Source of the DNA: a virus
Length of the DNA: 33,029 nt
Strand: one strand, 5' to 3'
IMG/VR virus record: IMGVR_UViG_3300047476_000319
Span: 1-33,029 of that record
A program made the translations under genes and the position numbers. The notes under the pieces are model-generated. The model did not search any database. It saw only the letters and a program-made list of their open reading frames with translations, and was not told where the DNA came from. The first letter of the stretch is position 1. Every line of letters begins with the position of its first letter. This document shows, piece after piece, positions 9,665 to 25,607 of this stretch.

Positions 9665-12600
9665 ATGGCCGTATCACAATCACAAATCGTTGACTTACTA
9701 TATAAGCAGGCATTCGGTGTTACAAAGACCGATACTGCTACTAATAAGAGTCCTAGTAACGAATCAATTCCTAGCCCAGCGCTGAATCGAGGAGATACTT
9801 TATGGACAGAAGCTGACCAAATACCCGGTACAGCGGCAGCTACAGCAGGTATTGTTCAAGCATATACCGGAGCGAACGCAGTACAATGTACAGCGGACAA
9901 TACTACAGTTCCGATAGGTGGTATATATCCTACATGGAAAACAAACTTAACATATTGGATACCTAGCGAATTTGGTTCAACATATAACGTTCAAGTTTTC
10001 ATCGATAACTCAGGAGCAGCCGACCCGACCAGTACAGGTACACAAATTTTCGCTGATGGATCAGGTGGTACAGGACAGTACTATTATGATTATCAGTCAG
10101 GTGTATTGAACTTTATTGGTGAGACGATACCTGCTGGATTAACTTCTGGTAAAGTTCTATATGTAGTTGGATACAGATATATCGGTAAAGTGGGTGTAAA
10201 CGATCTACCTGACGATACGACTATTGGTAACTTGAGTGTAAACGACACTACGATTGCGTCTATCAATACAAATGCTAATATTGAATTAAGCCCTAACGGT
10301 ACTGGTGTAGTTAACTCTACTGCTAACGTTGTAGCTCCTTACTTTATCGGTAACGTTGAAGGTAATATCAGTGGTAACGTAGTTGCTCCTGGTTCGAATA
10401 CTGAGATATTGTTTAACGATGGCGGAGTTATCGGAGCAAACACACTGTTCACTTTTGACAAAGCGACCGGCGAGCTAATACTAACTGGTAATGCTCAGTT
10501 TAATAATGCTAATTTAGGTAATTTAGGAACAGCTAACTATATTGACGTTACTAATCTAGCTAACATCGGTAACGTTACAATAACATATGAATTAAGCGGT
10601 AACTACGCTAACTTTACAAACAACGTTGTAACTAACAACACAACTATTAATTTAGAACTTGCGGGTAATACTGCGAACTTCAGCGGTAATGTCATACTAC
10701 CAAATTTACAAGTCAACTTAGAACTAGTCGGCAACACTGCTAATTTCAGTGGTAATGTTGTAGTTCCTAACTTAACTGTCAACTTAGAACTTGCGGGTAA
10801 TACAGCTAACTTCAGTGGTAATATCAAAACACTGAATGCCAACTTAGGTAATCTTGCTGAGGCAAACTACGTTAACGTTTCTTCTACATTGAATGTAACA
10901 GATACTGCTAACGTTGGTAATGCTGTTGTCAACAACTTGACACAATATCAATTAGTTTTCCCAGATAATACTAATAAGTTAGTCGGAAGCTCAGACTTGT
11001 ACTGGGACGTTGCGAGTTCAGCACTGTGGACAACTGGTATCTATTCAAATGGATTGATTAGTACTACATCTAATGTTGACGCAAATAACGCAAACATCAC
11101 TGCGAATCTAACATCCGGCAATGCTAATTTAGGTAACTTAGCTACGGCTAATTACATAAACGTTGCTAATGACTTAAACGTAACCGGTAACATAACTGGC
11201 GCAAATCTAATCGGGTCATTAGCTAATGGTAATAGTAACGTAAAAGTATATGGAAACGCAAACGTAGAAGTAACAGTATCTGGAAATAGCAACGTTGCTA
11301 CATTCGCAAGTACTGGTTTATATGTAGTTGGTGAGATTAACACTACTGCTGGCAACATGTTATCTAACGGTAACATTAGTGCTAACGGATTTTTGAATGG
11401 TGCTAATGCTAACATTACTGGTCAAGCAGAAATTGGTAGCGTTCTTACGGCTAACATAACAGCTCCAGTTGATAGTTTAACACTATCAGCGGCTGGTTCA
11501 GATCAAAACATATATCTAGTGCCTACTGGTTTAGGTACTGTAGATTTAGGATTACACAGAATCACTCAACTCGGTGATCCTACACAACCACATGACGCCG
11601 CGACAAAAGAATATGTTGATGCTATGGCAGGTGAAGGATTGGACATTCACACTCCTGTTAGAGTAGAAACTCCCGACACAGCCGGAAGTCTAAACGCAAC
11701 ATATGCTCAAGGTGGTACAACACAAACCACTACTGATATCAGTGGTGGAAAGACAATTACATTCAGCGCAAACCACGGTTTGTCTGTTAACGACGGTATT
11801 GTTTGGGATAATTCATTCAATGGAATCGTTGGTGGCGAAGCATATTGGGTTGAAACAGTACCAGCATTGAATCAGATTACAGTTCGAAATGGTTACTATG
11901 GTGCTGAAGTTACAACGCTTACAAACGGTACAGGGCTAACACAAGCATCACGTGCTAACCCAGGTGTCGGTGCTACACTTACTAACGCAGGCGCAAACGC
12001 AGCCTTGACAATCGATGGTATCGCACTAGCAAACACTAATCGTGTGTTGATATACAACCAAACGAATAGTGCTGAAAACGGTATATATGTTGTTACTGAT
12101 GTTGGTAACAGCACGGCTGCATGGGTATTAACACGTTCAAGTGATTTTGACAAATATATACCTGATTCTAGCGCAGGTATGAGCAAAGGATCATATGTAT
12201 TTGTAACCGCAGGTGCGACTGGAGCCGGTGAATCATATGTAATGACTTCACCAATCGGCGAAGTAATTATTGGTACAGATGCTCTAACATTTACTCAATT
12301 CAGTGCGGCAGGATCATATACCGCAGGTAACGGCATTGCTATAACTGGTACGACTATCAGCGCAAACACAGACGGTGTTACTACTGATGTAGTTGGTGGA
12401 AATATTGTTGTTAAATCAAGTGCTAACCTAACTACACCTAACGTAGGTGACGCAACGTTCAGTAGCTTGTCTTGGAACAATTTGAGTAATGGTAACGTTA
12501 CTGCTAACAATCTAAGCACTAGTAATATTGCTAACATTGGTCTTGATTTAACAGTCGGTGGTATCGCACAAGTTAACGGTAACATCAACAGTAACGCAAA

Positions 12601-14302
12601 CGTAAATTCAAACAATATATTTGTTACTAATTTTGTTGACATTGGCGCTAACTTACTAGCAAACAATATAACATCTAACCATGTTATTATTACTACTGAC
12701 GCAAACGTAAGTAACTTAGCAACTATTAACCAAGTAACAATCAACACTGAGTTGAGTGGTAACTATGCTAACTTTACAAATAACGTAGTAGCAAACAACG
12801 TAACAGTAAATTCAGAATTTAGCGGTAACACAGCGAATTTCAGTGGTAATGTAATATTACCTAACTTACAAGTTAATTCTGCGATTGCTGGTAACACCGC
12901 TAATTTCAGTGGTAATGTAATATTACCTAACTTACAAGTTAATTCTGCGATTGCCGGTAACACAGCTAACTTCAGTGGTAACGTAGTTGTTCCAAATCTA
13001 ACTGTCAACTTAGAGTTAGCAGGTAATACAGCCAACTTCTCTGGTAACGTAACCGTTAATAACATGTCTGTCACTAATGAGTTGACAGCCAACGTTATCA
13101 ACTTGACAGGTGAGATAACTGTTCCTAACTTAACAGTCAATAATTCTCTAACTGGCAACTATGCTAACTTCAGTAACAACGTAGTCACAAATAACGCAAC
13201 TGTGAATTTAGAGTTTAGTGGTAACACTGCTAACTTCAGCGGTAATGTCATACTACCAAATCTACAAGTTAATTCTGAAATCGCAGGTAACACTGCTAAT
13301 TTCAGTGGCAACGTAATTGTTCCGAACCTAACAGTCAACTTAGAACTAGCAGGTAACACAGCTAATTTTACGGGTAATATCAAGACACTAAATGCTAATT
13401 TAGGTAACTTGGCAACTGCTAACTTCATTGAAGTTTCTAGTAACGTTGTCACAAGTAATCTAACCGTTAATTTAGAACTAAGTGGAAACACAGCAAACTT
13501 CAGTAGCAATGTAGTTGTTAACAACTTAACAACTAACCTAGAATTAGCAGGTAATACAGCTAACTTCAGTGGTAACGTAGTTGTTCCAAATCTAACTGTC
13601 AACTTAGAGTTAGCAGGTAATACAGCCAACTTCTCTGGTAATATCAAGTCTCTAAATGCTAACTTAGGTAATCTTGCTACCGCAAATTACATCAATGTCG
13701 CAAGTGATATTGTTACAAGTAACTTGACAGTTAACCTAGAACTAAGCGGTAATACTGCTAATTTTACTGGCAACATTGCTCCTCTAGGTATACTAACTGA
13801 TAACTATTATTACGCAAACGGTAGCCCGGTTGACTTCCAACAAGCAGCCGGATCTAATAATGAGATACAATTTAATTCTAATGATGATTTCTCAGCTAGC
13901 GCGAACCTAACATTTGATCCTAGCACTAACGTGTTAGGTGTCATCGGTGATGCGAACATATCAAATGCCATAGTATTAGGCAACACTACAACAACGTGGG
14001 CGACAGTTACTACTACGGCAATTACGGCAAATCAAACAATCGCAAGTTTGTCAGTGACCGGTGTTACTGGTGTTGAGTACTTAGTTAAAGCAGTAGATTC
14101 TACTGGATCTAAATATAGTGTAGCAACAGTACAAGCAGTGACTGATGGAACTTCAGTTGATTACTCTACATACGGTACCGTGTATTTGGGTGGATCAACT
14201 GGTGTACTAGCAGTAAATATTGTAGGTGGATTGATAAGACTTCAAGTTACACCATCAAGTAGTAACAGCACAGTTTGGACAACACAATATAGGATCATAT
14301 AA
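9665..14302 (+). CDS. Giant repeat tail fibre protein (1545 aa)
   Basis: This is the longest gene in the window. Residues 1-180 are an N-terminal domain (IVDLLYKQAFGVTKTDTA ... DGSGGTGQYYYDYQSGVLNF) of a type I associate with marine myovirus fibres, different from the KPLN anchor of its neighbours. Next come an NTEILFNDGG module (about 245) and two blocks of a 22-residue repeat with core ELAGNTANFSGNVVVPNLTV: about four copies at 307-392 and about fourteen at 1024-1376. Between them lie the tail-fibre signature DAATKEYVDAM near residue 644 and a GVGATLT ... NRVLIYNQ ... FTQFSAAG domain at about 767-882 that recurs in phage fibres. The C-terminus (about 1438-1545) matches the end of the 1082-aa fibre. 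It overlaps the next gene by one base (TAATG). Confidence 0.87.
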   Translation: MAVSQSQIVDLLYKQAFGVTKTDTATNKSPSNESIPSPALNRGDTLWTEADQIPGTAAATAGIVQAYTGANAVQCTADNTTVPIGGIYPTWKTNLTYWIPSEFGSTYNVQVFIDNSGAADPTSTGTQIFADGSGGTGQYYYDYQSGVLNFIGETIPAGLTSGKVLYVVGYRYIGKVGVNDLPDDTTIGNLSVNDTTIASINTNANIELSPNGTGVVNSTANVVAPYFIGNVEGNISGNVVAPGSNTEILFNDGGVIGANTLFTFDKATGELILTGNAQFNNANLGNLGTANYIDVTNLANIGNVTITYELSGNYANFTNNVVTNNTTINLELAGNTANFSGNVILPNLQVNLELVGNTANFSGNVVVPNLTVNLELAGNTANFSGNIKTLNANLGNLAEANYVNVSSTLNVTDTANVGNAVVNNLTQYQLVFPDNTNKLVGSSDLYWDVASSALWTTGIYSNGLISTTSNVDANNANITANLTSGNANLGNLATANYINVANDLNVTGNITGANLIGSLANGNSNVKVYGNANVEVTVSGNSNVATFASTGLYVVGEINTTAGNMLSNGNISANGFLNGANANITGQAEIGSVLTANITAPVDSLTLSAAGSDQNIYLVPTGLGTVDLGLHRITQLGDPTQPHDAATKEYVDAMAGEGLDIHTPVRVETPDTAGSLNATYAQGGTTQTTTDISGGKTITFSANHGLSVNDGIVWDNSFNGIVGGEAYWVETVPALNQITVRNGYYGAEVTTLTNGTGLTQASRANPGVGATLTNAGANAALTIDGIALANTNRVLIYNQTNSAENGIYVVTDVGNSTAAWVLTRSSDFDKYIPDSSAGMSKGSYVFVTAGATGAGESYVMTSPIGEVIIGTDALTFTQFSAAGSYTAGNGIAITGTTISANTDGVTTDVVGGNIVVKSSANLTTPNVGDATFSSLSWNNLSNGNVTANNLSTSNIANIGLDLTVGGIAQVNGNINSNANVNSNNIFVTNFVDIGANLLANNITSNHVIITTDANVSNLATINQVTINTELSGNYANFTNNVVANNVTVNSEFSGNTANFSGNVILPNLQVNSAIAGNTANFSGNVILPNLQVNSAIAGNTANFSGNVVVPNLTVNLELAGNTANFSGNVTVNNMSVTNELTANVINLTGEITVPNLTVNNSLTGNYANFSNNVVTNNATVNLEFSGNTANFSGNVILPNLQVNSEIAGNTANFSGNVIVPNLTVNLELAGNTANFTGNIKTLNANLGNLATANFIEVSSNVVTSNLTVNLELSGNTANFSSNVVVNNLTTNLELAGNTANFSGNVVVPNLTVNLELAGNTANFSGNIKSLNANLGNLATANYINVASDIVTSNLTVNLELSGNTANFTGNIAPLGILTDNYYYANGSPVDFQQAAGSNNEIQFNSNDDFSASANLTFDPSTNVLGVIGDANISNAIVLGNTTTTWATVTTTAITANQTIASLSVTGVTGVEYLVKAVDSTGSKYSVATVQAVTDGTSVDYSTYGTVYLGGSTGVLAVNIVGGLIRLQVTPSSSNSTVWTTQYRII
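10585..10840 (+). repeat. 22-aa (66-nt) coding repeat, block 1
   Basis: About four tandem copies of a 66-nt coding unit with core GNTANFSGNV lie inside the 1545-aa fibre gene. The block ends in the spacer LNANLGNLAEANYVNV. The same unit returns in a longer block further along the gene. Confidence 0.8.
12962..13047 (+). repeat. 86-bp exact direct repeat, copy 1
   Basis: This 86-bp stretch is identical to 13556-13641, 594 bp downstream in the same gene (exactly nine 66-nt units). Recombination between the copies would remove or add 198 residues in frame. Confidence 0.88.
13556..13641 (+). repeat. 86-bp exact direct repeat, copy 2
   Basis: Second copy of the 86-bp exact repeat. The sequences diverge immediately outside at both ends (t versus c upstream, t versus c downstream). 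Confidence 0.88.
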
Positions 14303-17300
14303 TGGCATTGAAACCCCTTAACGTAGTCGATGGTCTCTCCGTCGGAGAGACACCGATTGATGTAATTGATGCTAACGGGAATGTCACTGCTACTAACTTA
14401 ACAGTATCAGGTATTTCTGACTTAGGTGCTATCGGTAATATTACTATTACCGGTGGTAGCAACGGTCAAGCAATTGTTACTGACGGTGCTGGTAATCTAA
14501 GTTTTATTACAATCGAAGGCGGTGGAGGAAATTCTGCCGCCCCTATGCCATATTTTATTCCGGCAGGAGATTCTCTTACTGTACCTACTAATTTTCAAGG
14601 TCTATTTTATGAACCAATCGACATAGAAGGTACATTTGAAGTTGACGGTATCTTGATAGACGTAAGTGGTGGCGGGACTGGAAACGGAATTCCCGGCGGT
14701 AACTCCACTCAAGTTCAATTCAATGACGGTGGTGTATTTGGTGGTAATGCCGGTCTAACATTTACAAAAGCTAACACTACTCTTACTGCTAACAACTTTA
14801 TAGCAACTAGTTCTGCTAATTTAGGTGACGTATCTAATATAACTATCAGTGGTGGTAACGCTAACTTTGTACTACAGACAGATGGATTTGGTAATTTATC
14901 ATGGGTAGAACAAACCGGTGGCGGCGGTGGAGTATCAGTAACAGTAGACGACTTCACTGGTAACGGGGTACAAACTCAATTTACATTGAGCGTAACACCA
15001 ACTGATATCGATTATACTTCAGTTAACTACAACGGTGTATTACTATTGCGCACAGATTATTCTTTAGCCGGTAATGTATTGACTACTAGTAGTGCTCCCG
15101 CAAATGGTTCTAGTTTAGAAGTAACTATTCTATCTAGTTCAAGCGGCGGCGGTGGTAATGGGACACCCGGCGGCGCAAATACACAAGTTCAGTTTAACAA
15201 TGACGGTGCTTTCGAAGGTAACGTTGGATTCACTTATGATTTAACAACCGGCACATTAACTGCCCCGGTACTTCAAGGTGAAGGTGCCAACATAGCAAAC
15301 ATCCCCGGCGGTAATGTAACTGGTCAAGTTAACTTTGCGGCTACAGCAAACAGCGTAGCAGGTGCCAATGTTACCGGATATGTGGCATTATCAACACTAG
15401 CAAACTCAGCAGTTTCTGTTAATGGATCTAATATTGTTGGAGCAGTTCCATACGCAATAGTTGCTAATGCTGTATCTGGTTCAAATGTAACCGGTGAAGT
15501 AAGTTTTGCGGCAGTCGCTAATAGCGTAGATGGATCAAATGTAAGTGGAGCTGTTAGTTATGCTACCACTGCTAACTCAGTAGCAGGCGCAAATGTAGCA
15601 GGTGAAGTAAGTTATGCAGCAATTGCTAACTCAGTAGCCGGTGCTAATGTATCAGGAGCTGTTAGTTATGCGACCACTGCTAACTCAGTAGCAGGCGCGA
15701 ATGTATCAGGTGAAGTAAGTTTTGCGGCAGTAGCCAATAGTATAGCCGGTGCTAATGTATCAGGTGAAGTTGGTCTAGCTACGTATGCTACAACGGCAAA
15801 TAGTGTAGCTGGATCAAATGTAAGTGGTAGTGTATCAAGTGCTACTACCGCCGGTACCGTAACTACAAATGCGCAACCTAATATTACAAGCGTCGGTACG
15901 TTGTCATCTTTATCTGTCACTGGTAACGTTACCGGCGGGAACATCGAAACATCTGGTACAGCTAATGTAGGAACTTTAAGTGTTACTACAGGCGGAGCGA
16001 GTATTACTGGTTTAGTGAATATCACAGGTGACATAGGTGTAACTGGTAACTTTAATGTATCTGGTAACTTGAATTATCAAAACGTAACTGATTTAGTTGT
16101 AGGTGATCCCTTAATTTATCTTGCGGCAAACAGTGTAGGGGATACCGAAGATATAGGTATTGTTGGTAACTACAATGACGGAGGATATGCTCATACTGGT
16201 TTAGCACGAGACCATACGGACAACACATGGAAATTCTTTTCGAACGTACAAGCAGAACCAACTACTAGTATCGACTGGGCAAACGCTAGTTACCCTTCAG
16301 TTAAAACAGGTAACTTGTTCTCTGCTAACATAACTGGCACTGGCTGGGCTAACATAACAGGTAACGTCACTGCTGGAAATGCCGATCTAGGCAACAGTGT
16401 GGTTGCTAACTACTTTATAGGTAGCGGTGCCAATCTAACTAGCATTTCAGGTGCTAATGTAACAGGTGAAGTTTCATTGGCTACATACGCAACAACTGCT
16501 AACTCAGTAGCAGCCGCAAATATTTCAGGCACTGTTAACTTAGCAAACTTTGCAACCGCCGCAAATAGTGTAGCAGGTGCCAACGTAACCGGTCAAGTAT
16601 CTAATTCGTTAGTAGCCGGTACTGTGTATACTGCCGCACAACCAAACATCACAAGTGTAGGTACGTTGACTACATTAGCAGTTACCGCAAACGCAACGGC
16701 AGGTAATGTATATGCTAACAGCGGAACTATCGGAGCTAGTTTATTAACTGGTACATTGACAACTGCTTCTCAGCCAAACGTAACAAGTGTTGGAACACTA
16801 TCGTCGTTGGCAGTTACAGCCAACATAACAGCAGGTAATGTATATGCTAACAGTGGTACAATTGGTGCTGGCACATTATCTGGAACATTATCAACTGCCT
16901 CTCAAACAAACATTACGGCAGTAGGTACACTAGCTTTCTTAGAAGTATCAGGTAACATCAATAGTGGAAACGCCGTGTTAGGTAATGCTGCCGTTGCCAA
17001 CTATTTAGGTGGTACATTAATAACGGCGGCGCAGCCTAACGTTACAAGTGTAGGTACACTAACTAGTGCCAATATATCCGGAGTGCTTACAGTACGTACT
17101 GCTAGCGCAACAGCCGGTGGTTTCAATCCAACTATCGCTGCAAAATCTATAGCAGATAGCATCGGTGGCGGCATTATGGTAGAAGGTAATGCTGCAGATG
17201 CGACATTGAACATGGGGTATGATGGGACTTCTATGTTCTTATCATCTAGCTATCGTTCAACCGCAGGATACAAACCAATAGCATTTTATACTTCGGGTAC

Positions 17301-17931
17301 TCAACGTGCTACATTAAGCACCGGTGGTGATTTTGCGTTAGGAACAACTACAACTCTTACTGGCGGCGGAAGCGCTAGATGGTTTACTATTAACGGCAGC
17401 GGCAGTAACTATAGCGGGGGTATAATATACGCATTAGAAGGTACTGCTAAAGCATATACGTATTATCAAGATGGGTATGTCTGCCATCAGGCATTGTCAT
17501 CATACGGTCATACTTTCTACGTAAACGGATCATCAATCGGAGCAAGAATAGATTCTAGCGGTAGAACATTGTTGGGTGGATATTCAGCTAGCGTAGGTTC
17601 ATACTCACTTCAAGTATCAGGTAATGTATACTTGAGCGGAACCCTAACAGAAGCGTCATCTATAAAACTTAAAGAAAATATAAGACCAATTACAAACGCA
17701 CTTGATGTTGTTTGTAATCTTGAAGGTGTTATATATGACAAGAAGGATGGTTCTAGTTATGACGAGCCTGGCTTCATCGCTGAAAAAGTCGCAGAAGTTA
17801 TAGAAACATTAGTTGATAGGGATAAAGACGGCAACCCAATGGGTGTCAAATATAACAAAACGATTGCGTATCTTGTAGAGGCTATTAAGGAACTTAAGGC
17901 AGAAATTGACTTACTTAAGGGAGATAGATAA
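14302..17931 (+). CDS. Tail fibre with C-terminal S74-type intramolecular chaperone (1209 aa)
   Basis: Modules in order: the KPLN anchor (1-30, ALKPLNVVDGLSVGETPIDV); an FQGLFYEPIDIEGTFEVDG segment (about 87-123); NTQVQF modules near 135 and 292; a DDFTGNGVQTQFTLS domain (about 211-276) typical of phage fibres; VAGANVSGAVSYATTANS repeats (about 334-516); a VVGDPLIYL ... GLARDHTDN ... EPTTSIDWANA module (594-670); five AQPNITSVGTL-type repeats; a globular region (about 928-1118); and an S74-like C-terminus from about 1118 (SSIKLKENIRPITNALDVV ... EPGFIAEKV, final coiled coil). S74 domains help fibres trimerise and usually release themselves by a Ser/Lys cut at their N-terminal edge; Ser1119/Ser1120 and the LK pair fit, although the usual SD is SS here. 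It shares TAATG junctions with both neighbours. Confidence 0.88.
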   Translation: MALKPLNVVDGLSVGETPIDVIDANGNVTATNLTVSGISDLGAIGNITITGGSNGQAIVTDGAGNLSFITIEGGGGNSAAPMPYFIPAGDSLTVPTNFQGLFYEPIDIEGTFEVDGILIDVSGGGTGNGIPGGNSTQVQFNDGGVFGGNAGLTFTKANTTLTANNFIATSSANLGDVSNITISGGNANFVLQTDGFGNLSWVEQTGGGGGVSVTVDDFTGNGVQTQFTLSVTPTDIDYTSVNYNGVLLLRTDYSLAGNVLTTSSAPANGSSLEVTILSSSSGGGGNGTPGGANTQVQFNNDGAFEGNVGFTYDLTTGTLTAPVLQGEGANIANIPGGNVTGQVNFAATANSVAGANVTGYVALSTLANSAVSVNGSNIVGAVPYAIVANAVSGSNVTGEVSFAAVANSVDGSNVSGAVSYATTANSVAGANVAGEVSYAAIANSVAGANVSGAVSYATTANSVAGANVSGEVSFAAVANSIAGANVSGEVGLATYATTANSVAGSNVSGSVSSATTAGTVTTNAQPNITSVGTLSSLSVTGNVTGGNIETSGTANVGTLSVTTGGASITGLVNITGDIGVTGNFNVSGNLNYQNVTDLVVGDPLIYLAANSVGDTEDIGIVGNYNDGGYAHTGLARDHTDNTWKFFSNVQAEPTTSIDWANASYPSVKTGNLFSANITGTGWANITGNVTAGNADLGNSVVANYFIGSGANLTSISGANVTGEVSLATYATTANSVAAANISGTVNLANFATAANSVAGANVTGQVSNSLVAGTVYTAAQPNITSVGTLTTLAVTANATAGNVYANSGTIGASLLTGTLTTASQPNVTSVGTLSSLAVTANITAGNVYANSGTIGAGTLSGTLSTASQTNITAVGTLAFLEVSGNINSGNAVLGNAAVANYLGGTLITAAQPNVTSVGTLTSANISGVLTVRTASATAGGFNPTIAAKSIADSIGGGIMVEGNAADATLNMGYDGTSMFLSSSYRSTAGYKPIAFYTSGTQRATLSTGGDFALGTTTTLTGGGSARWFTINGSGSNYSGGIIYALEGTAKAYTYYQDGYVCHQALSSYGHTFYVNGSSIGARIDSSGRTLLGGYSASVGSYSLQVSGNVYLSGTLTEASSIKLKENIRPITNALDVVCNLEGVIYDKKDGSSYDEPGFIAEKVAEVIETLVDRDKDGNPMGVKYNKTIAYLVEAIKELKAEIDLLKGDR
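15300..15850 (+). repeat. GANVSG / ATTANSVA coding repeats
   Basis: Tandem coding units of mostly 18 residues (54 nt) with core NSVAGANVSGAVSYATTA; some longer units carry GLATYATT. The same family recurs in the genes at 19616 and 31203. Confidence 0.8.
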
Positions 17932-18392
17932 TGGCTAATCTTGGTACTATTCCGGTCAACGTTGTAGCACCGGGTACGTTCCCGTCTAGTAATACTACGA
18001 AACTAGGGATTTACTATACAGTAACTTACTCTGGGGGCAATTACTATCATTACAAAACTAACATCACAAAGGGTGGAAGTTGGATGGGAATGGTAGAATT
18101 CGTAGGGAATAGTTACGGTAATGGAAGTGTGCCTATACGTTCTGCCATTTGTTTTTATGCCTATTCAGGTACACAAACTCTTATTAATGTTGGATTGAGC
18201 AATGCTTATAATGGTATGGCAGCAGAAACAGTATATCAATCTTCTGATAACTATGCTGTGTTAGTAGTATCAACTAGTAGCTACTTTTCAGGTTGGGTAC
18301 TGAATGCGTACCAATCTAATCCCACTACCCCAGGATATGACCTTCAAATACTTAGCGTAGCACAGTCAGGTAGCACATCACCGGTGTTTTAA
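17931..18392 (+). CDS. Small fibre-associated protein, trio A member 1 (153 aa)
   Basis: First of three consecutive paralogues (17931, 18395, 18844). Shared landmarks are the Y-H-[YFL]-KTN motif (HYKTNI here), a following M..VEFVGNSYG, SAICFYAY, YQSSDNYAVLVV, a FSGWVLNAYQ block and a C-terminal DLQILSVAQSGS before a final Phe. The pattern of short strands and aromatic residues suggests one compact beta-sandwich domain. No signal peptide or membrane segment is visible. Placement directly after an S74-capped fibre, with a TAATG junction and a strong ribosome-binding site (aagggaga), suggests a virion or fibre-tip role such as receptor or glycan binding. That is inference; I do not recognise a characterised family. 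Confidence 0.7.
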   Translation: MANLGTIPVNVVAPGTFPSSNTTKLGIYYTVTYSGGNYYHYKTNITKGGSWMGMVEFVGNSYGNGSVPIRSAICFYAYSGTQTLINVGLSNAYNGMAAETVYQSSDNYAVLVVSTSSYFSGWVLNAYQSNPTTPGYDLQILSVAQSGSTSPVF

Positions 18393-18394
18393 AT

Positions 18395-18844
18395 ATGGCA
18401 TACTTATCTTATCCTGTAAATATGTATCCAGACAGTGGTGGATATGCTGTAAAGAGATCCATTTATAAAGCATTCACTACTGATAGTTCAGCGACATACT
18501 TACATTTTAAAACAAACGTTCCAATAGCGTCATATATCATGACAGTAATTGAAGCAGTAGGATACAACTATGGTCCATCACAGCCAGTTAGATGTGCTTG
18601 GGGATTTTATACGTATGGTACTTATATTGTCAGTAGTTCAGTTAGAACTTGCTATTCAGGTGTAGAAGCTAATGGAATGTACGCATCATCTGACGGCTAT
18701 GTTTGTATACGAGGATATGCTCCGGGCGGGTCTTACTTCAATGGATTTATTTTAAACGGATATCAAACAGCAGGAAATGGAAGAGGTTACGATTTACAAA
18801 TCACTGCCGCCTCATATGGTACTAATTCGGGAAGTGCTTTCTAA
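18395..18844 (+). CDS. Small fibre-associated protein, trio A member 2 (149 aa)
   Basis: Second paralogue of the trio. It has YLHFKTNVP near residue 39, VIEAVGYNYGPSQPVRCAW, YASSDGYVCIRGYAPGG, FNGFILNGYQTAG and DLQITAAS before a terminal Phe. It is the only member with several cysteines (RCAW, RTCYSG, VCIRG). It starts 2 nt after the previous stop and its own stop overlaps the next start (TAATG), so the three genes look like one translational unit. Sequence identity to its siblings is modest by eye, so the duplications are old or the genes have diversified under selection. Function unknown; a fibre tip or adhesin role is inferred from context only. Confidence 0.68.
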   Translation: MAYLSYPVNMYPDSGGYAVKRSIYKAFTTDSSATYLHFKTNVPIASYIMTVIEAVGYNYGPSQPVRCAWGFYTYGTYIVSSSVRTCYSGVEANGMYASSDGYVCIRGYAPGGSYFNGFILNGYQTAGNGRGYDLQITAASYGTNSGSAF

Positions 18845-19293
18845 TGTCTACACTACAAAGTTTACATTCTTATTATGATACTGGAACCTGGGTAACTCAG
18901 CTTGGTGTTTATTGTTTTGCTACAACTGACGGGTCGCTCAGTTACCTACATTTAAAAACAAATGTCCCGGTTACAGGTGGCAGAAACACAATGTGGATGA
19001 TAGAATTTGTAGGTTATGCCTACGGAGGAGCACAAAACATTAGATCAGCGATAACATTTCACACTAGCGTTGGTACATTGTACCATGTGGGTACACAAAA
19101 TGCTTATCCCGGGCTCACCCCGCAAACAGTCTATATAAGCAGTGACGGTTACGCAGTAATTAGAGTCACTGCTCCTTTCTATTACACCGGGTTCGTGATA
19201 AACGCATACAGCACAGCGCCATATTCACCTAACGAACCTTTTAGGATATTATCGGCATCACAAAATAATAATTCAGGAACAGGAACATTTTAA
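18844..19293 (+). CDS. Small fibre-associated protein, trio A member 3 (149 aa)
   Basis: Third paralogue. It keeps YLHLKTNVP near residue 39, MIEFVGYAYGGAQNIRSAIT, YISSDGYAVIRVTAP, YTGFVINAYST and FRILSASQNNNSGTG before a final Phe. It is closer to member 1 through the IEFVG and IRSAI blocks. It begins inside the stop codon of member 2 and is followed after 1 nt by the 99-aa gene. The conserved H-x-KTN and SSDGYAVIR blocks are probably core strands, while the loops between them vary most, as expected for binding loops. That reading is inference. Confidence 0.68.
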   Translation: MSTLQSLHSYYDTGTWVTQLGVYCFATTDGSLSYLHLKTNVPVTGGRNTMWMIEFVGYAYGGAQNIRSAITFHTSVGTLYHVGTQNAYPGLTPQTVYISSDGYAVIRVTAPFYYTGFVINAYSTAPYSPNEPFRILSASQNNNSGTGTF

Positions 19294-19294
19294 T

Positions 19295-19594
19295 ATGGAT
19301 AGCAATTTAACAATGAAACACTACATAAATCCAGTTACTGGTGACAGATATTGGATTAGACCAGAAGATTCTCCGCAACCGGGCTGGATTGAAGTAGAGC
19401 AAACAGAAGAACCGTCATTACCTGACCCCAGTTATGTGCCACCGTATACAGCACGTAGGGTCAATGAGTATCCATCTATATCGGATCAGCTTGATATGTT
19501 ATGGCATGCTATGAACAATGACGAGATACCCGGCAAAGGTGGAGAATGGTATAATACCATATTAGCAGTCAAGACGCAACACCCGAAAACATAA
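19295..19594 (+). CDS. Small hypothetical phage protein (99 aa), fibre-associated
   Basis: The N-terminal half reads like a short beta segment (YINPVTGDRYWIRPEDSPQP) and a Pro-rich linker. The C-terminal half (VNEYPSISDQLDMLWHAMNN ... GEWYNTILAVKTQHPKT) follows a pattern I recognise from many small phage virion-associated proteins, YPSI.DQLD.L followed by W...I..VK..YPK. A structural or fibre-assembly role is plausible from the family pattern and from its place between fibre genes, but it is not established here. The ribosome-binding site is aggaac. Its stop codon overlaps the late promoter of the next gene. Confidence 0.65.
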   Translation: MDSNLTMKHYINPVTGDRYWIRPEDSPQPGWIEVEQTEEPSLPDPSYVPPYTARRVNEYPSISDQLDMLWHAMNNDEIPGKGGEWYNTILAVKTQHPKT

Positions 19595-19597
19595 ATA
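19590..19597 (+). promoter_or_regulatory. T4-type late promoter
   Basis: CATAAATA overlaps the stop codon of the 99-aa gene and ends exactly 18 nt before the ATG at 19616. This is the same spacing as the elements at 7558 and 31177. Confidence 0.65.
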
Positions 19598-19615
19598 ATA
19601 TAAACGGATTAAAAT

Positions 19616-22333
19616 ATGGCATTAACGACAATACAACCTTATAATATTAACACAGTAGCTACATTCAGTTTCACGGATGTGGCTGCTACCGACGTTTCTG
19701 CCACCGGTAATGTTGAAGCTACAGGTAATGTTTCAGGTGATTATTTTATCGGCAACGGTTCTAGCTTAACACATTTGAACGGAGCCAACGTAACAGGTGA
19801 AGTAGATTATGCGGCTACTGCTAACAGTGTAGCCGGATCTAATGTTTCAGGTGAAGTAGATTATGCCGCAGTTGCTAACAGTGTAGCAGTAGCAAATGTA
19901 TCAGGTATCGGTAACATAGCTACTATAAATTTAGATGGCAACGCAGGTAATATATTATATGGCAATGGTGTATTTTCTTCTGCCCCAAATGTAGAGAACG
20001 CCAATACAGCTAATTATGCTAGTGTCGCTAATTCTATTACTGGCTCAAATGTTTCTGGAGAAGTATCTTTTGCTAATACCGCTAATAGTGTAGCCGGCGC
20101 TAATGTATCTGGGGCAGTTGCTTATGCGACTACTGCTAACTCAGTAGCAGGCGCCAATGTAAGCGGAGCAGTTGGGTTAGCCACATACGCAACAACAGCT
20201 AACTCAGTCGCGGGAGCTAATGTAAGTGGTCAAGTTAACTTTGCAGCAACAGCAAACAGTGTAGCAGGAGCTAATGTAAGTGGTCAAGTATCGTATGCCG
20301 CAGTAGCTAATAGTGTATCAGTTGCTAATGTATCAGGTATCGGCAACATCGCTGTACTAAATTTAGATGGTAATTCAGGTAATATACTATACGGTAACGG
20401 TTCTTTTGCTACAGCACCAAACGCAGAATATTCAAATATAGCAAATACTGCCGGTACAGTTACAACTAATGCTCAGCCTAACATCACTAGTGTAGGCACA
20501 TTAACTATTTTAACATCTACAGGTAACATCACTGGCGGCAATCTAGTAACTGCCGGATCAGCCAATGTGGGCAGTGGTATCAGTGTCAGTGGTGGCGGCG
20601 CAAGTATTATAGGTGCTGTTGGTATTACTGGTGATATTAATGTTACTGGTAACTTTAACGTATCAGGTAATCTAAATTATCAAAATGTAACTGATTTAGT
20701 AGTTGGAGATCCATTGATATATCTTGCTGCCAACGGTGTAGGGGATACAGACGATATAGGTATTGTTGGTAACTACAACGACGGAGCATATAGACATACC
20801 GGACTAGCGAGAGATCATAGTGATGATATTTGGAAATTCTTTACTGACTTAGCGCCTGAACCAACTACCGTGATTGATTGGGCTAACGCTAGTTACCCCA
20901 CAGTTAAAGTGGGCAATTTACTATCTGCTAATTTAACAGGTACTGGTTGGGCAAATATAACAGGTAACGTCACTGCTGGAAATGCTAATTTAGGTAATGC
21001 AGTAACTGCTAATTACTTTGTCGGTAGCGGTGCTAACTTGTCAAGCATTGCCGGAGCAAACGTCACTGGTGCTGTTAGTTATGCGACTACTGCTAATAGT
21101 GTAGCAGGAGCCAATGTATCAGGGGCCGTATCATACGCAACAACAGCAAACAGTGTAGCCGGTGCTAACGTATCGGGGGCAGTAGGATTAGCTACATATG
21201 CTACTACTGCTAACTCAGTAGCCGGTGCTAACGTATCAGGAGCTGTTAGTTATGCGACTACAGCTAACTCAGTAGCCGGTGCTAACGTATCAGGAGCTGT
21301 TAGTTACGCGACTACAGCTAACTCAGTAGCCGGTGCTAACGTAAGTGGTACTGTTGGTAGTGCGACTACAGCAGGTACTGTAACAACTGCAGCACAACCA
21401 AACATAACAAGCACAGGTACATTGTCTAGTGTTAACTCGTCAGGCAACGTAACAGCACCTAACGTAGTAGCAAACACGGGCGCATTCTATGGTTCTGGTG
21501 CTGGATTATCAAGCATACCAGCCGGTAACTTAACCGGTACAATTGATAATGCTAGAGTTAACGGTCAAACATATACAATAAATATCACTGGATCTGCTGG
21601 AACAGCAAGTACAGTAACAACTGCGGCTCAACCTAACATCACTAGTGTTGGTACACTATCTAGTGTTTCTGTTTCTGGAACATCAACGCTACCTCAGATT
21701 TTGGTTAACAGAAGTTCAGGTGCCGGTACTGGTATATCTTGGTATTCTAGTAGTTATTCGGCCTGGACTGATTATATGTCATCCGCAGGAGCAACAGGTT
21801 GTGGTCCTTTTGGTAATATTACAGCACCTAGCGGCAACTTAGTCACTAACTGGGGCCTAAGAAGTTTTATCGAAGATGCTTCAGGTTATGGATGGACATG
21901 GGAATCTGGTTCGGCGCAACAAACAACTCCTACGATTAAAGCAGAAATTCGTTCAAGTGACGGGTCATTCAGAAACACAGGTAATATCTATTGTGTAGGT
22001 GACGTTATCACTAACTACTCTGATGTCAATTTGAAAGATATCATCGGTCCTATTGAAAACGCAGTAGAAAAAGTATGTGCTATTGAAACTTTCTACTATC
22101 GTCCTAATCAAATAGCAAAAGACTTAGGTGTAGCTGATGAACTTCAAGTTGGTGTCAGCGCACAATCTGTCAAACGAGTTGCTGAAGAAACTACTAGACC
22201 CAGCCCAATTAATGATAAGTACTTAACGGTTATGTATGAAAGATTGGTTCCATACTTGATAGAATCAATCAAAGAACATGAAAAAACAATACAAGACCTA
22301 AAAGAACAAATCAATAGTTTGAAGGGCAAATAA
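19616..22333 (+). CDS. Tail fibre with C-terminal S74-type intramolecular chaperone (905 aa)
   Basis: The N-terminus (ALTTIQPYNINTVATFSF) differs from the KPLN anchor. GANVSG/ATTANSVA repeats cover about residues 56-232 and 479-582. Between them lie a GNAGNILYGNGVFSSAPN-type spacer repeated twice and a VVGDPLIYLAANGVGDT ... HTGLARDHSDD module (356-435). Three AQPNITS-type repeats follow. Residues about 696-800 form a globular aromatic region (SWYSSSYSAWTDYMSSAG, WGLRSFIEDASG), probably the tip. From 802 comes a canonical S74 start, SDVNLKDIIGPIENAVEKV, continuing to VGVSAQSV and a final coiled coil (LIESIKEHEKTIQDLKEQI). The SD..LK arrangement suggests the chaperone cuts itself off before Ser802. 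The stop overlaps the next gene (TAATG). Confidence 0.88.
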   Translation: MALTTIQPYNINTVATFSFTDVAATDVSATGNVEATGNVSGDYFIGNGSSLTHLNGANVTGEVDYAATANSVAGSNVSGEVDYAAVANSVAVANVSGIGNIATINLDGNAGNILYGNGVFSSAPNVENANTANYASVANSITGSNVSGEVSFANTANSVAGANVSGAVAYATTANSVAGANVSGAVGLATYATTANSVAGANVSGQVNFAATANSVAGANVSGQVSYAAVANSVSVANVSGIGNIAVLNLDGNSGNILYGNGSFATAPNAEYSNIANTAGTVTTNAQPNITSVGTLTILTSTGNITGGNLVTAGSANVGSGISVSGGGASIIGAVGITGDINVTGNFNVSGNLNYQNVTDLVVGDPLIYLAANGVGDTDDIGIVGNYNDGAYRHTGLARDHSDDIWKFFTDLAPEPTTVIDWANASYPTVKVGNLLSANLTGTGWANITGNVTAGNANLGNAVTANYFVGSGANLSSIAGANVTGAVSYATTANSVAGANVSGAVSYATTANSVAGANVSGAVGLATYATTANSVAGANVSGAVSYATTANSVAGANVSGAVSYATTANSVAGANVSGTVGSATTAGTVTTAAQPNITSTGTLSSVNSSGNVTAPNVVANTGAFYGSGAGLSSIPAGNLTGTIDNARVNGQTYTINITGSAGTASTVTTAAQPNITSVGTLSSVSVSGTSTLPQILVNRSSGAGTGISWYSSSYSAWTDYMSSAGATGCGPFGNITAPSGNLVTNWGLRSFIEDASGYGWTWESGSAQQTTPTIKAEIRSSDGSFRNTGNIYCVGDVITNYSDVNLKDIIGPIENAVEKVCAIETFYYRPNQIAKDLGVADELQVGVSAQSVKRVAEETTRPSPINDKYLTVMYERLVPYLIESIKEHEKTIQDLKEQINSLKGK
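21211..21343 (+). repeat. Near-perfect 54-bp tandem repeat in the 905-aa fibre gene
   Basis: Units at 21211-21264 and 21265-21318 differ at one position (tat versus tac), and a 25-bp partial third copy follows. The unit encodes NSVAGANVSGAVSYATTA in rotated phase. Neighbouring units encode the same peptide with different codons, so this pair is a recent expansion. Confidence 0.88.
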
Positions 22334-23466
22334 TGGGATTCTATGTAGGTAATAGCGGCAACGCAAATGTAAACGCAACTTCTAGTGGATTTAAGGCACC
22401 GGTATTCACCTCATCGACATTGCCCGCTAGTCCAGTCGAAGGACAAGTAATTTATAATTCTACTACCCAGTACATGCAGGTGTACGCTAACGGTAGTTGG
22501 AATAACTTGGGGGTATTTCCCGGAACAGCAGGTTATCCATACAGACAAATAATTGTAAAGAGTTTTGTTATGGGTGGATATCAAAATACTAGCCCATGGC
22601 GAAATGTAAACAAGATGGTACACAGTACAGATGTGTGTACTAACTTAGGCGATCTGTTAAGTTATGCAGGAGTATACACAAGTGGTGTTAATAACCTAAC
22701 CAGAGGTTTCTTGTGGAGTACAGACGGTTCATTCCCTGGAGCAAGCACAACTACAAGTGCAATTAATATGAACACCGAGACTACAGCCGGTACCAATGCT
22801 AATTGGAATACTAGAATTGCTAGAGATGACATGGGCACTGGATTCAAAGAAACTGAATTTGCTTATATCGTAGGTGGTGGATCAGCCGTATTTGATATTT
22901 TTAATCTTACAACCGAAACTATGTATTACGGAACACCTATGTACTTACCATTTGATACGGTGTTGTCTTATACTGCACAAGGTAGTGGTGATACAAGTGC
23001 TGTAAGCGATGAAAACGCATGTTGGTTTTGGGCTACAGGCCCATTGAACACAAAACTTTCGTTCAACACTCATACTTTTACAAGCAATGGATTAGTGGCT
23101 GCAGCTGGTGGATTGCGAGGTTCTTCTATTGGCGGAGCACACGGACAACAAAAGGGTATTAATAGTAAATGGGGTCGTGGTTATGCTGGTGGAAATGGTA
23201 GCTGGAACGGCGGCTATATATTAAATCGCATGGTGTTCTCGACAGAAACATCCACCACAATCAATAAGCCAATCGGTAATACCGGCGAAGAGAATTTTGA
23301 CATGGGACAAAACTGGCAGTATATGATGGGCTGTTATGATGGAGCACAAAACAACAGAGGTTGGAAGTTTACATATGCTACTGACTTGGGTGTCGAACTA
23401 GGTTCAGGAAGCGTAAGAACCGGCGTACCTGGCGGCAGTTCTGGTCATTGCGTTTGGAGCACATAA
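22333..23466 (+). CDS. Propeller-like fibre/adhesin protein, trio B member 1 (377 aa)
   Basis: First of three tandem paralogues. The N-terminus has a common phage fibre module, LPASPVEGQVIYNSTTQYM, followed by W. The body has recurring S-T-[DE] turns about every 45-60 residues (HSTDVCTNLGDL, NMNTETTAG, NLTTETMYYG, VFSTETSTTI) next to Gly-Gly strands, as in kelch-like beta-propellers. The C-terminus is highly conserved: GEENFDMGQNWQYMMG, DGAQNNRGWKFTYATD, ELGSGSVRTGVPGGSSGHC. It is more diverged from members 2 and 3 than they are from each other. A fibre-tip or carbohydrate-binding role is inferred. TAATG overlaps occur at both ends. Confidence 0.75.
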   Translation: MGFYVGNSGNANVNATSSGFKAPVFTSSTLPASPVEGQVIYNSTTQYMQVYANGSWNNLGVFPGTAGYPYRQIIVKSFVMGGYQNTSPWRNVNKMVHSTDVCTNLGDLLSYAGVYTSGVNNLTRGFLWSTDGSFPGASTTTSAINMNTETTAGTNANWNTRIARDDMGTGFKETEFAYIVGGGSAVFDIFNLTTETMYYGTPMYLPFDTVLSYTAQGSGDTSAVSDENACWFWATGPLNTKLSFNTHTFTSNGLVAAAGGLRGSSIGGAHGQQKGINSKWGRGYAGGNGSWNGGYILNRMVFSTETSTTINKPIGNTGEENFDMGQNWQYMMGCYDGAQNNRGWKFTYATDLGVELGSGSVRTGVPGGSSGHCVWST

Positions 23467-24536
23467 TGGCATTTTCTATAGGTAGCAACAACATAATGAC
23501 AGTAAACGGCTTGGTAATGCCAATATATACCACAGCCACTAGACCAGCGAATCCTGTGATCGGACAAGTCATATACAATTCTACTACAGCCTACATGGAA
23601 AGATTCGATGAAGGAAATGTATGGAGACCTGTTATATATTCCGGGGCTCTACTGTACAGACAGATTATTACAACTAGCTATGTTGCTGGCGGATACAAAG
23701 ACAGCAGTCCTTGGAAAAACGTTAATAGAATGACACATAGTACTGATGTTATGGTTAACCTAGGTGATCTGTTAGCGACGGCAGCTAACTATACTTCGGG
23801 AGCATGTAGCCTAACAACAGCTTTTATGTGGTGTGCCTCACCTGACGCATTTCCTACAACACCAACTAATACTACAGTAGCATTTGCCATGACTACTGAA
23901 ACAACATTAGGTACAGCAACTCGGTGGAATTTAGGTAACGCAAGAAATGACTGCGGAACTATATTTAAAGAAACAGAATATGCTTATGTCACCGGCGGCG
24001 GTCCAGCTGCAGTGGACGTATTTAATCTTAGTACAGAAACTGTTACAGCAGGTGGCGTATCCGGACAAACGGGTGACGCCTCTTATCAGAATGGTGTTAG
24101 CGCATTCAGCGGGGAATTCGTAGGATATTGGTGGGGTAGTAGTGGTCAAAAACTTACGTTCAGTACAGGAACATCGTACACCGTCGCAGATGCGTCTGGG
24201 GTAAGTACTAATGGACAGCAAAAAGGTATCTCAAGTAAAGTAGGTAGAGGATATATGGGTAATGAAGGTACGTACAATGGCGGGTACAATTTACGTAGAT
24301 ATGTAATCTCAACCGATTCGTACACTACTGTTGCCAAACCTGTAGGTAATTCAGGAGAAGAAAACTTTGACATGGGTCAAAATTGGCAGTATATGATGGG
24401 TATGTACGATGGAGCACAAAACAACAGAGGTTGGAAGTTTACCTACGCAACTGATAGTGGTTATGAATTAGGCTCTGGTAGTGTACGTACGGGTGTCGCA
24501 GGTGGCAGTTCTGGTAACTGTTTCTGGAGAAGTTAA
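23466..24536 (+). CDS. Propeller-like fibre/adhesin protein, trio B member 2 (356 aa)
   Basis: The start at 23466 is chosen over an in-frame ATG at 23448. It gives MAFSIGSNN, matching the MAF/MGF starts of both siblings, it overlaps the previous stop by one base (TAATG), and a GGAG ribosome-binding site precedes it. Landmarks are TRPANPVIGQVIYNSTTAYM, GGYKDSSPWKNVNRMTHSTD, RNDCGTIFKETEYAYVTGGG, WWGSSGQKLTFSTGTSYT and GEENFDMGQNWQYMMGMYDG. Recurring STD/STE turns suggest several blades of a beta-propeller. It is closest to member 3, sharing DNA tracts of more than 30 identical bases. It is followed directly by member 3 with no gap. Confidence 0.78.
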   Translation: MAFSIGSNNIMTVNGLVMPIYTTATRPANPVIGQVIYNSTTAYMERFDEGNVWRPVIYSGALLYRQIITTSYVAGGYKDSSPWKNVNRMTHSTDVMVNLGDLLATAANYTSGACSLTTAFMWCASPDAFPTTPTNTTVAFAMTTETTLGTATRWNLGNARNDCGTIFKETEYAYVTGGGPAAVDVFNLSTETVTAGGVSGQTGDASYQNGVSAFSGEFVGYWWGSSGQKLTFSTGTSYTVADASGVSTNGQQKGISSKVGRGYMGNEGTYNGGYNLRRYVISTDSYTTVAKPVGNSGEENFDMGQNWQYMMGMYDGAQNNRGWKFTYATDSGYELGSGSVRTGVAGGSSGNCFWRS

Positions 24537-25607
24537 ATGGCATTCAAGCTAAATTCTAATATTGTATTATCAAACGATGGCATAAACATACCGGTGTTTG
24601 CCGGCAATGCTAGACCAGCAAACCCTGTTACAGGACAGGTTATCTACAATTCATCTACTAACATCATGGAGATATATGATGGTGGTTTGTGGAAGGATGT
24701 GACACAGAACGCTAGTGGAACTGCATTTTTATATAGACAACTTATATCAACTAGTTATGTTGCAGGTGGGTATCAAAGTGCTAGCCCATGGAAAAACGTA
24801 AATCGAATGAGCCAAAGTACCGATATTATGACTAATTTAGGTGACTTGTTATCGATAGCAGCCAACTATACATCAGGCGCGAATAGCTTAACTACTGCTT
24901 ATATGTGGTGTGCATCTCCAACATGGGACGGAACAGCAGTTGCTACAGTAGCATATAATATGGCTACTGAAACAAGCGCTGGCTCATTATCATCATGGAA
25001 TATGCCAGTTGCACGTAACGATTGTGGTACAATATTCAAAGAAACACAATATGCTTATGTAACAGGGGGCAGTAGCGCAGATGTTAGTGTTTGGACATTC
25101 TCAACCGAGAGTTTTTCATCTGGTGCTGTATCTGGACAAACAGGTGATTCCTCTTATCAGTATGGTGTTGCGTCAATCAGTGACGAGACCTCAGGTTACT
25201 GGTGGGGTAGTAGTGGTCAAAAACTTACGTTTGGTACAGGTACTACATACACAATAGCTAATGCTGCCAACGTTAACGTTAATGGACAGCAAAAAGGTAT
25301 CTCAAGTAAATTAGGCTTTGGATACTTTGGTAATGAAGGTGGATATAACGGCGGATATAATCTTAGAAAGTACATAACTAGTACTGATACATATACTACT
25401 ATTCCTAAACCTATAGGTAATTCAGGAGAAGAGAATTTTGACATGGGACAATATTGGCAGTATATGATGGGTATGTATGACGGAGCACAAAACAACAGAG
25501 GTTGGAAGTTTAGTTACACAGCCGATACAGGATATGAGCTTGGTTCGGGAAGTACAAGAACAGGGGTTCCGGGAGGAAGTTCTGGGCACTGTGCGTGGAA
25601 GGCATAA
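24537..25607 (+). CDS. Propeller-like fibre/adhesin protein, trio B member 3 (356 aa)
   Basis: The ATG follows the previous stop with no gap, after a GGAGAAG ribosome-binding site. It shares ARPANPVTGQVIYNSSTNIM, GGYQSASPWKNVNRMSQSTD, RNDCGTIFKETQYAYVTGGS, WWGSSGQKLTFGTGTTYT and the NNRGWKF C-terminal block with member 2. The most variable stretches lie between the conserved turns, where propeller top loops would be expected. Cysteines are few and mostly conserved (WCAS, NDCG, GHC). No signal peptide is visible, as expected for a virion part assembled in the cytoplasm. The binding target is unknown. Confidence 0.78.
   Translation: MAFKLNSNIVLSNDGINIPVFAGNARPANPVTGQVIYNSSTNIMEIYDGGLWKDVTQNASGTAFLYRQLISTSYVAGGYQSASPWKNVNRMSQSTDIMTNLGDLLSIAANYTSGANSLTTAYMWCASPTWDGTAVATVAYNMATETSAGSLSSWNMPVARNDCGTIFKETQYAYVTGGSSADVSVWTFSTESFSSGAVSGQTGDSSYQYGVASISDETSGYWWGSSGQKLTFGTGTTYTIANAANVNVNGQQKGISSKLGFGYFGNEGGYNGGYNLRKYITSTDTYTTIPKPIGNSGEENFDMGQYWQYMMGMYDGAQNNRGWKFSYTADTGYELGSGSTRTGVPGGSSGHCAWKA

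Follow-up and report, generated by a model that had tools for sequence, protein, structure and literature searches.

An S74-capped phage fibre followed by a fixed trio of jelly-roll genes: a candidate heterotrimeric tip

Introduction

The tips of phage fibres are currently pictured either as homotrimers or as single adhesins. A 33,029-nt stretch of DNA from an uncultured T4-like phage (the window) raises the question of whether a tip could be built from three different gene products: it contains two fibre cassettes, and in each of them an S74 fibre gene is followed by three paralogues. The first-pass annotation of this DNA proposed a twofold architecture, in which the two trios sit in equivalent places and may provide either three alternative or heterotrimeric tip proteins for each fibre or banks for the diversification of host range. 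A heterotrimeric tip, if real, would let a phage alter its receptor faces one by one, would require three tip genes to co-evolve, and would bear on the prediction of host range from sequence and on the annotation of unnamed genes.

Results

Two fibre cassettes with unrelated trios

All the genes described here lie on the plus strand. The first cassette (14302–19594) begins with fibre 1 (14302–17931, 1209 aa), which carries an S74 cap at its C-terminus (PF13884, chaperone of endosialidase, residues 1119–1171, E 1.1e-8, above the Pfam cut-off). The second (19616–25607) begins with fibre 2 (19616–22333, 905 aa), whose C-terminal S74 match scores 21.5 bits, slightly below the curated Pfam cut-off of 22; tail-fibre PHROGs match over the same region. 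The S74 domain previously assigned to both fibres is thus confirmed for fibre 1 and falls just short of the threshold for fibre 2, with the tail PHROGs in agreement. Both fibres and their aligned relatives keep the serine with which the S74 domain begins, the cleavage site of such caps; the caps would be shed by self-cleavage. The caps also sort by head class, fibre 1 grouping with other fibres that precede trio 1 genes and fibre 2 with those that precede trio 2 genes (SH-aLRT 99).

The open reading frames bear out two tandem trios. Trio 1 consists of A1 (17931–18392, 153 aa), A2 (18395–18844, 149 aa) and A3 (18844–19293, 149 aa), and trio 2 of B1 (22333–23466, 377 aa), B2 (23466–24536, 356 aa) and B3 (24537–25607, 356 aa); the listed frame of B2 begins at an upstream TTG (23448), and the ATG at 23466 gives the 356-aa product. 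Four of the six gene junctions are 1-nt overlaps of the TAATG type and B2/B3 has no gap, as first described, but A1 and A2 are separated by 2 nt. We quote exact gaps for the window only, as start codons picked by script in relatives are unreliable for this purpose (window A2 is an example). Between the trios lies a 99-aa gene that had been overlooked (19295–19594; phrog_1787, E 4.5e-14). It belongs to the first cassette and has no Pfam family; that it encodes an assembly factor is a guess.

Members are homologous within each trio, with pairwise identities of 37–47% in trio 1 (BLASTP E 1e-17 to 9e-29) and 49–66% in trio 2 (E 1e-111 or better). Between the trios the best E-value is 0.24 and the profile–profile probability 0.9%, in keeping with the earlier view that they are unrelated. 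A 24-nt repeat (family D20) is common to A3 and trio 2, but profile and BLASTP comparisons reject homology.

Trio 1 is predicted to adopt a fibre-tip fold

An AF2 monomer model of A2 (pLDDT 83.1) is all-beta, made of strands without a helix, and forms a jelly-roll that resembles the trimer domains found at the C-termini of phage fibres and tailspikes, at modest Z-scores of 8.5–6.2 (Foldseek E 2e-4 against 6e1r). Matches at this level may reflect the common jelly-roll arrangement. A1 and A3, by their homology to A2, the arrays and the tree, are predicted to be tip subunits of the same kind.

In sequence searches, none of the trio 1 members matched a Pfam family at E-values up to 0.1, the PF07484 collar included, or a PHROG family. 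A tblastn search of 50,697 phage records with A2 gave no match, and neither did two fused relatives (described below) in the phage-record search. A search of genome contigs for relatives returned 88 pattern matches, none of them confirmed, and comparison to PDB sequences returned two chance-level xyloglucanase rows (E 0.11).

Trio 1 always comes in three

All 20 complete trio 1 arrays, which form 11 clusters at 90% identity, have exactly three standalone members, and none has one, two or four. An S74 fibre lies upstream in all 19 arrays with upstream sequence, and the small conserved gene lies downstream in 21/21. Left out before counting, as duplicate fetches of contigs or of the window, were L037–L046, L072–L086, L088, L089, L092, L095, L098, L100 and L115.

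The same domain also occurs as a single fused copy at the extreme C-terminus of 30 out of 30 long fibre frames, with 1–13 residues beyond it, and none of these 30 fibres has an S74 domain. In L069 and L087 the fused gene occupies the slot of the trio. We built a 57-row tree in which each 90% cluster is represented by one array (11 of the 20 complete ones), together with 24 of the 30 fused domains. It contains position clades with support of 97/90, 97/86 and 98/89, and positional orthologues are resolved across 6–8 of the 11 arrays; window A2, window A3 and the deepest arrays fall in no resolved position clade. The AU test comes close to rejecting a single origin for the standalone members (p 0.067). 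All three members are under purifying selection (dN/dS 0.02–0.18, six pairs). Net charge across the three positions showed no pairing pattern and no complementarity, and no pair of repeats between members reached a length suggestive of switching.

Trio 2 is a tandemly expanded adhesin

B1, B2 and B3 match phrog_1417 over most of their length (E 5e-52 for B3 to 7.7e-57 for B1), and B2 and B3 are sister copies in the tree. The AF2 model of B2 (pLDDT 86.1) has an N-terminal docking domain (residues 1–65) and a six-bladed propeller (66–356) that matches Kelch domains with a Z-score of 28.3 over 264 residues (rmsd 2.4); the same architecture is predicted for B1 and B3. The propeller is Kelch-type by fold and not a Pfam Kelch member, as no Kelch family was matched up to E 0.1, nor did trio 2 match any PDB sequence. 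The docking domain is also present in other fibre genes, and the heads are probably fibre-borne. The fold gives a structural hypothesis for phrog_1417.

Complete trio 2 arrays have one, two or three members in 4, 17 and 14 of 35 cases (L116, read separately, is excluded), and five loci (L001, L002, L036, L049 and L116) have no adjacent S74 fibre. Because the copy number varies and the S74 fibre is not always adjacent, trio 2 is a tandemly expanded adhesin and not a fixed trio. The first-pass annotation had held that copy numbers not linked to S74 fibres would speak against its proposal, so in part it is contradicted by its own standard. Three-member clusters make up 11/11 for trio 1 versus 5/17 for trio 2 (Fisher p 2.5e-4, with clusters that are not fully independent). 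The two trios are not equivalent, and the twofold symmetry is a chance agreement between their copy numbers in the window phage: of 12 records with trio 1 that were searched in full, 10 lack full-length trio 2 genes (these records may be fragments). Nor do the trios look like diversification banks, given dN/dS values of 0.02–0.19 in all members tested of both trios and the constant number of trio 1.

Discussion

There is good support for reading trio 1 as three tip proteins that belong together. Because its count is fixed at three, an S74 fibre lies upstream, its domain ends other fibres and positional orthologues can be followed across 6–8 of the 11 arrays, a heterotrimer is the best reading of trio 1, and the idea of three heterotrimeric tip proteins per fibre survives for this cassette but not for trio 2, with its one to three copies. 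We see an even chance that trio 1 forms a detached, obligate 1:1:1 heterotrimeric tip in place of a fused homotrimeric one while trio 2 supplies the duplicated Kelch heads of the second fibre. In this scheme, the homotrimeric fibre 1 would fold and then shed its S74 cap, and A1, A2 and A3, one of each, would form a receptor-binding knob that docks onto the bared end. This knob would stand in for the single jelly-roll that related phages fuse to the fibre C-terminus, there presumably in three identical copies; triplication and loss of the shaft would have led from a tip of identical chains to an obligate heterotrimer. Fibre 2 would bear Kelch-propeller heads held via their N-terminal docking domains, and tandem duplication of the head gene could place different heads on the sites of one fibre. 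The broader proposal, which we hold a little more tentatively, is that this is a heterotrimeric tailed-phage fibre tip, in which a chain-fused homotrimer was detached and triplicated into three non-interchangeable subunits with three faces to the host, and that this class of S74 fibre travels as one cassette with the three subunits and the small gene behind them.

Each trio 1 protein could instead form its own homotrimer, with the knobs stacked on one fibre or carried on different fibres and offering three receptor specificities. The fused relatives are single genes and therefore presumably homotrimers, the lineages of window A2 and A3 are not resolved, and charge complementarity is absent, all of which would fit. 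Separate homotrimers however leave three in 20/20 complete arrays unexplained while trio 2 varies, and the individual proteins have no second fibre or docking domain of their own, so we regard them as unlikely, if the most credible of the alternatives. The number three could also be an accident of tandem duplication, as it is for trio 2; the cluster comparison and the age of the trio 1 members (37–47% identical) speak against this, and we consider it improbable. We are equally doubtful of a host-range bank in which the subunits mix freely or are used singly: duplication of receptor-binding genes is frequent, but here the copy number is invariant, the position-specific lineages are ancient, purifying selection is uniform and repeats of switching length were not seen.

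Least probable is that trio 1 encodes fibre chaperones or transient caps that are absent from the mature tip. The trio does directly follow the fibre gene, as chaperone genes do in the Alteromonas phages A5 and V22 (excerpt of PMC10579305). The caps described in that excerpt have an alpha-helical body, however, whereas the A2 model is all-beta; other fibres end in the trio 1 domain, and fibre 1 already has its own S74 cap.

To place these findings, we compared both trios to known systems. The trio 2 family is already known singly in cyanophages: phrog_1417, or T4-GC 351 ('sericin 1 precursor-like'), was matched in 123 cyanophage records, similar genes follow in both settings, and the two cyanophages examined (L001 and L002) have one strong copy each (464 aa in Syn33) compared to three tandem copies of 356–377 aa in the window. 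Literature searches for 'sericin' in cyanophages returned nothing useful, and the S-SM1 virion proteome gave no evidence on this cluster, as no GC 351 label appears in the S-SM1 stretch examined (excerpt of PMC3037559). Phage CBB has Kelch-domain proteins, and mass spectrometry detected one of them, CBB_552, in the particle (excerpt of PMC5259590); likened by description, it places a Kelch-type propeller in a virion context, although trio 2 has no Pfam Kelch match. Two further candidates, PMC10713586 and PMC10329688, were discarded, as 'Kelch' is merely an author name there.

For trio 1, T4 gp9 and Acinetobacter phage tailspikes offer C-terminal trimer domains that share the predicted jelly-roll and the C-terminal place seen in the fused relatives. 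Those domains lie within one chain, whereas trio 1 is split over separate genes, three in every complete array, and no sequence similarity between them was detected. A detached tip has a parallel in gp38 of T2-like phages and S16, a separate tip adhesin encoded directly after the distal fibre gene; by this description gp38 is one adhesin and trio 1 a fixed three paralogues. The proposed design of three obligatory, non-interchangeable subunits follows the logic of the heads of C1q. The fused and split forms of the trio 1 domain stand side by side and make the transition from homomer to heteromer directly testable.

Among the papers that searches for heterotrimeric phage fibres or tailspikes listed, PMC12724248 alone describes a heterotrimeric fibre, as judged from titles and abstracts; in the excerpt of PMC10966104, 'heterotrimeric' refers to baseplate wedges. 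We found no earlier report of a fixed-three heterotrimeric fibre tip in a tailed phage; the heterotrimer principle itself is known from virophage DSLV2. According to the excerpt of PMC12724248, three consecutive paralogous genes there encode a heterotrimeric tail, whose co-purified subunits support a 1:1:1 composition, and phage homologues of the tail proteins were modelled as homotrimers. The DSLV2 proteins, of 196, 205 and 247 aa, are mounted on a virophage capsid and contain a collar like that of T4 gp37 (PF07484). Trio 1, by contrast, has no Pfam match and is predicted to be a jelly-roll, and in its T4-like phage an S74 fibre precedes it. Both systems have three consecutive co-directional paralogues; the DSLV2 genes have positional orthologues across relatives, and those of trio 1 group by position in 6–8 of 11 arrays but not in the deepest. 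By analogy DSLV2 may serve as a precedent for the principle of the heterotrimeric tip proposed for trio 1.

Genomic setting of the two fibre cassettes

The window covers the whole of a 33,029-base virus record, and both trios lie inside a series of long fibre genes. Upstream are genes for a prohead protease of the T4 type (PF03420, E 1.7e-28) and for the major capsid protein gp23 (PF07068, E 8e-99), whose nearest relatives (66-67%) belong to jumbo phages related to T4, for example Vibrio phage 2.275.O and Pseudomonas phage PA5oct. A small ORF (3839-4204, - strand) that lies between gp23 and the first fibre, opposite in orientation to all others, has a weak HNH endonuclease match below cut-off (E 0.0054) and is perhaps a homing endonuclease. 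A 1545-aa ORF (9665-14302) has a 66-nt repeat (~22 residues per unit) and matches the head-decoration family phrog_2647 over residues 740-944; its sequence indicates a mixed fibre/decoration protein.

The first-pass annotation had described two S74-capped fibres, each followed by three paralogues, and we confirmed this observation; its interpretation is partly supported. Fibre 1 (14302-17931) precedes trio 1 (A1-A3, 17931-19293) and fibre 2 (19616-22333) precedes trio 2 (B1-B3, 22333-25607). Members are homologous within trio 1 (37-47% pairwise identity, E 1e-17 to 9e-29) and within trio 2 (49-66%, E 1e-111 or better); in sequence, trio 1 and trio 2 are not related. The S74 domain is clear in fibre 1, but borderline in fibre 2. 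Between the trios we also found a 99-aa gene (19295-19594), absent from the earlier description, which matches phrog_1787 (E 4.5e-14) and proved to be part of the first cassette.

Trio 1 is a set of exactly three

Three scans, two of them queried with trio 1 sequences and the third with domains of the fused type, detected standalone copies of the trio 1 domain, encoded as separate genes, on 21 distinct contigs including the window. All 20 complete arrays, which form 11 clusters at 90% identity (31-83% identical to one another over the joined proteins), have exactly three members; the sole incomplete array ends with its contig (L060) after two. An S74 fibre gene adjoins the array in 19 of 19 with upstream sequence and a small gene of the 99-aa type follows in 21 of 21, giving the cassette order S74 fibre, three trio 1 domains, small gene. 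No single or paired standalone copy was seen, though the same scans readily caught single fused copies. Each of the 12 array-bearing records searched whole (36-199 kb) carries three standalone copies, and one (L050) has an additional fused copy.

In its fused form the domain ends 30 long ORFs (259-1665 aa, six starting at a contig edge) across 28 loci, with 1-13 residues beyond it, and none of these 30 ORFs contains an S74 domain. An S74 fibre gene lies immediately 5' of the fused gene in eight loci (L069, L070, L087, L094, L099, L101, L102 and L105), and two of these, L069 and L087, also have the small gene after it, so that here the fused fibre occupies the slot held elsewhere by the trio. 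Two consecutive long fibre genes both terminate in the domain in L103 (581-7383) and L069 (8075-12903), in the latter with the small gene between them.

In a 57-row tree from the 11 arrays and 24 fused domains, supported clades united position 1 of 8 arrays (97/90), position 2 of 7 (97/86) and position 3 of 6 (98/89), whereas no supported placement was obtained for positions 2 and 3 of the window or for the deepest arrays; an earlier 33-row tree was consistent with this. A single origin for all standalone copies was neither demonstrated nor rejected (AU p 0.067). The third members of two divergent arrays (L048_p3 and L061_p3) fall together with domains of fused fibres (97/87), a hint that split tips had more than one origin or were exchanged with fused ones.

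We modeled A2 from a 24-row alignment and obtained an all-beta fold (pLDDT 83.1). Among solved structures it best matches the C-terminal domains of several fibre-like proteins: WceF (Z 8.5), T4 gp9 (Z 8.0), the tailspikes of Fri1 (Z 7.8), AM24 and vB_ApiP_P1 (both Z 6.6) and the tail fibre of Pa193 (Z 6.2). All of these scores are modest, and a clostridial protease also matches (Z 6.6); Foldseek placed 6e1r first (E 2e-4). C-terminal domains of this fibre and tailspike kind are homotrimers. Given the predicted fold and the position of the domain at the C-terminus of fused relatives, trio 1 is likely a trimeric tip knob.

Trio 2 varies in copy number

B1, B2 and B3 all match phrog_1417, which in cyanophages is matched at one place per record (123 records), with some members labelled 'sericin 1 precursor-like'. 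A B2 model (37-row alignment, pLDDT 86.1) has a small N-terminal domain and then a six-bladed Kelch-type propeller (Z 28.3 to 7pvp, 28.1 to Keap1 1x2j); the family is already known though unnamed, and the Kelch-type fold is newly assigned from the model. Outside this family, the N-terminal domain occurs 29 times in ORFs of the loci examined, including consecutive genes around T4-GC 347-350 of Syn33 and P-SSM4, suggesting that it serves as a docking module and that its heads are exchangeable.

Among 35 complete arrays, 4 have one copy, 17 have two and 14 have three, and three copies occur in 5 of 17 clusters. The array is adjoined by an S74 fibre in 33 of 37 cases not cut upstream; in L116, an additional array of three was counted separately, and no S74 was found in the fibre preceding it. 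In the lineage of the window, the copies at positions 2 and 3 are sisters of each other. The variable copy number, incomplete S74 adjacency and sister copies argue for a tandemly expanded adhesin gene rather than a fixed set.

The two genes 3' of trio 2 (25633-27097) are in reverse order in the cyanophages Syn33 and P-SSM4, with the third gene in the same place. A methyltransferase-domain protein (27117-28730, C-terminal PF13578), kept 3' of trio 2 in most loci, is followed by a 2OG-Fe(II) oxygenase (28691-29338). Further on, a membrane protein (30084-31139) matches DUF401 above cut-off (E 2.3e-8) and, weakly, a citrate-transporter family; this transporter-like gene, unusual for a phage, is possibly a host-metabolism gene.

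Discussion

The proposed equivalence of the two cassettes did not hold. The S74 caps 5' of trio 1 (19 rows) and trio 2 (33 rows) fall into two separate classes (SH-aLRT 99), with one window cap in each, which indicates that each type of cap goes with a head type of its own. Of the 12 trio 1 records that were searched over their full length, just two have full-length trio 2 genes (two in L049, three in L064), which makes the doubled "three" a coincidence of this phage. The suggestion that each fibre carries a set of three tip proteins survives for trio 1, whereas trio 2, with 1-3 copies and partial S74 linkage, does not fit it. The alternative that the trios are host-range diversification banks is not supported: dN/dS is 0.02-0.18 for all three trio 1 members (six array pairs) and 0.03-0.19 for trio 2 (seven pairs), so no tested member looks like a spare copy in decay or like a cassette under hypervariation.

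We hypothesize that trio 1 would assemble into an obligate heterotrimeric knob seated on the exposed end of the S74 fibre. The fixed count of three, the old position-specific lineages and the tight co-directional spacing are all consistent with this, as are a fold of the trimer-forming kind and the existence of a homologue acting as a single fused tip. It is possible that the three proteins instead form three homotrimers, and the charges of the members do not suggest any pairing. We regard trio 1 as a strong candidate for a heterotrimeric tip of a phage fibre.

Literature searches assessed from titles and abstracts yielded no heterotrimer of consecutive paralogous tail genes in tailed phages. 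In the virophage DSLV2, three consecutive paralogous tail genes encode a heterotrimer with biochemical support (PMC12724248). The DSLV2 tail proteins differ in having a PF07484 collar, which trio 1 lacks, but their positional-orthologue pattern is similar to that of trio 1, and the heterotrimer principle thus has a precedent (PMC12724248).
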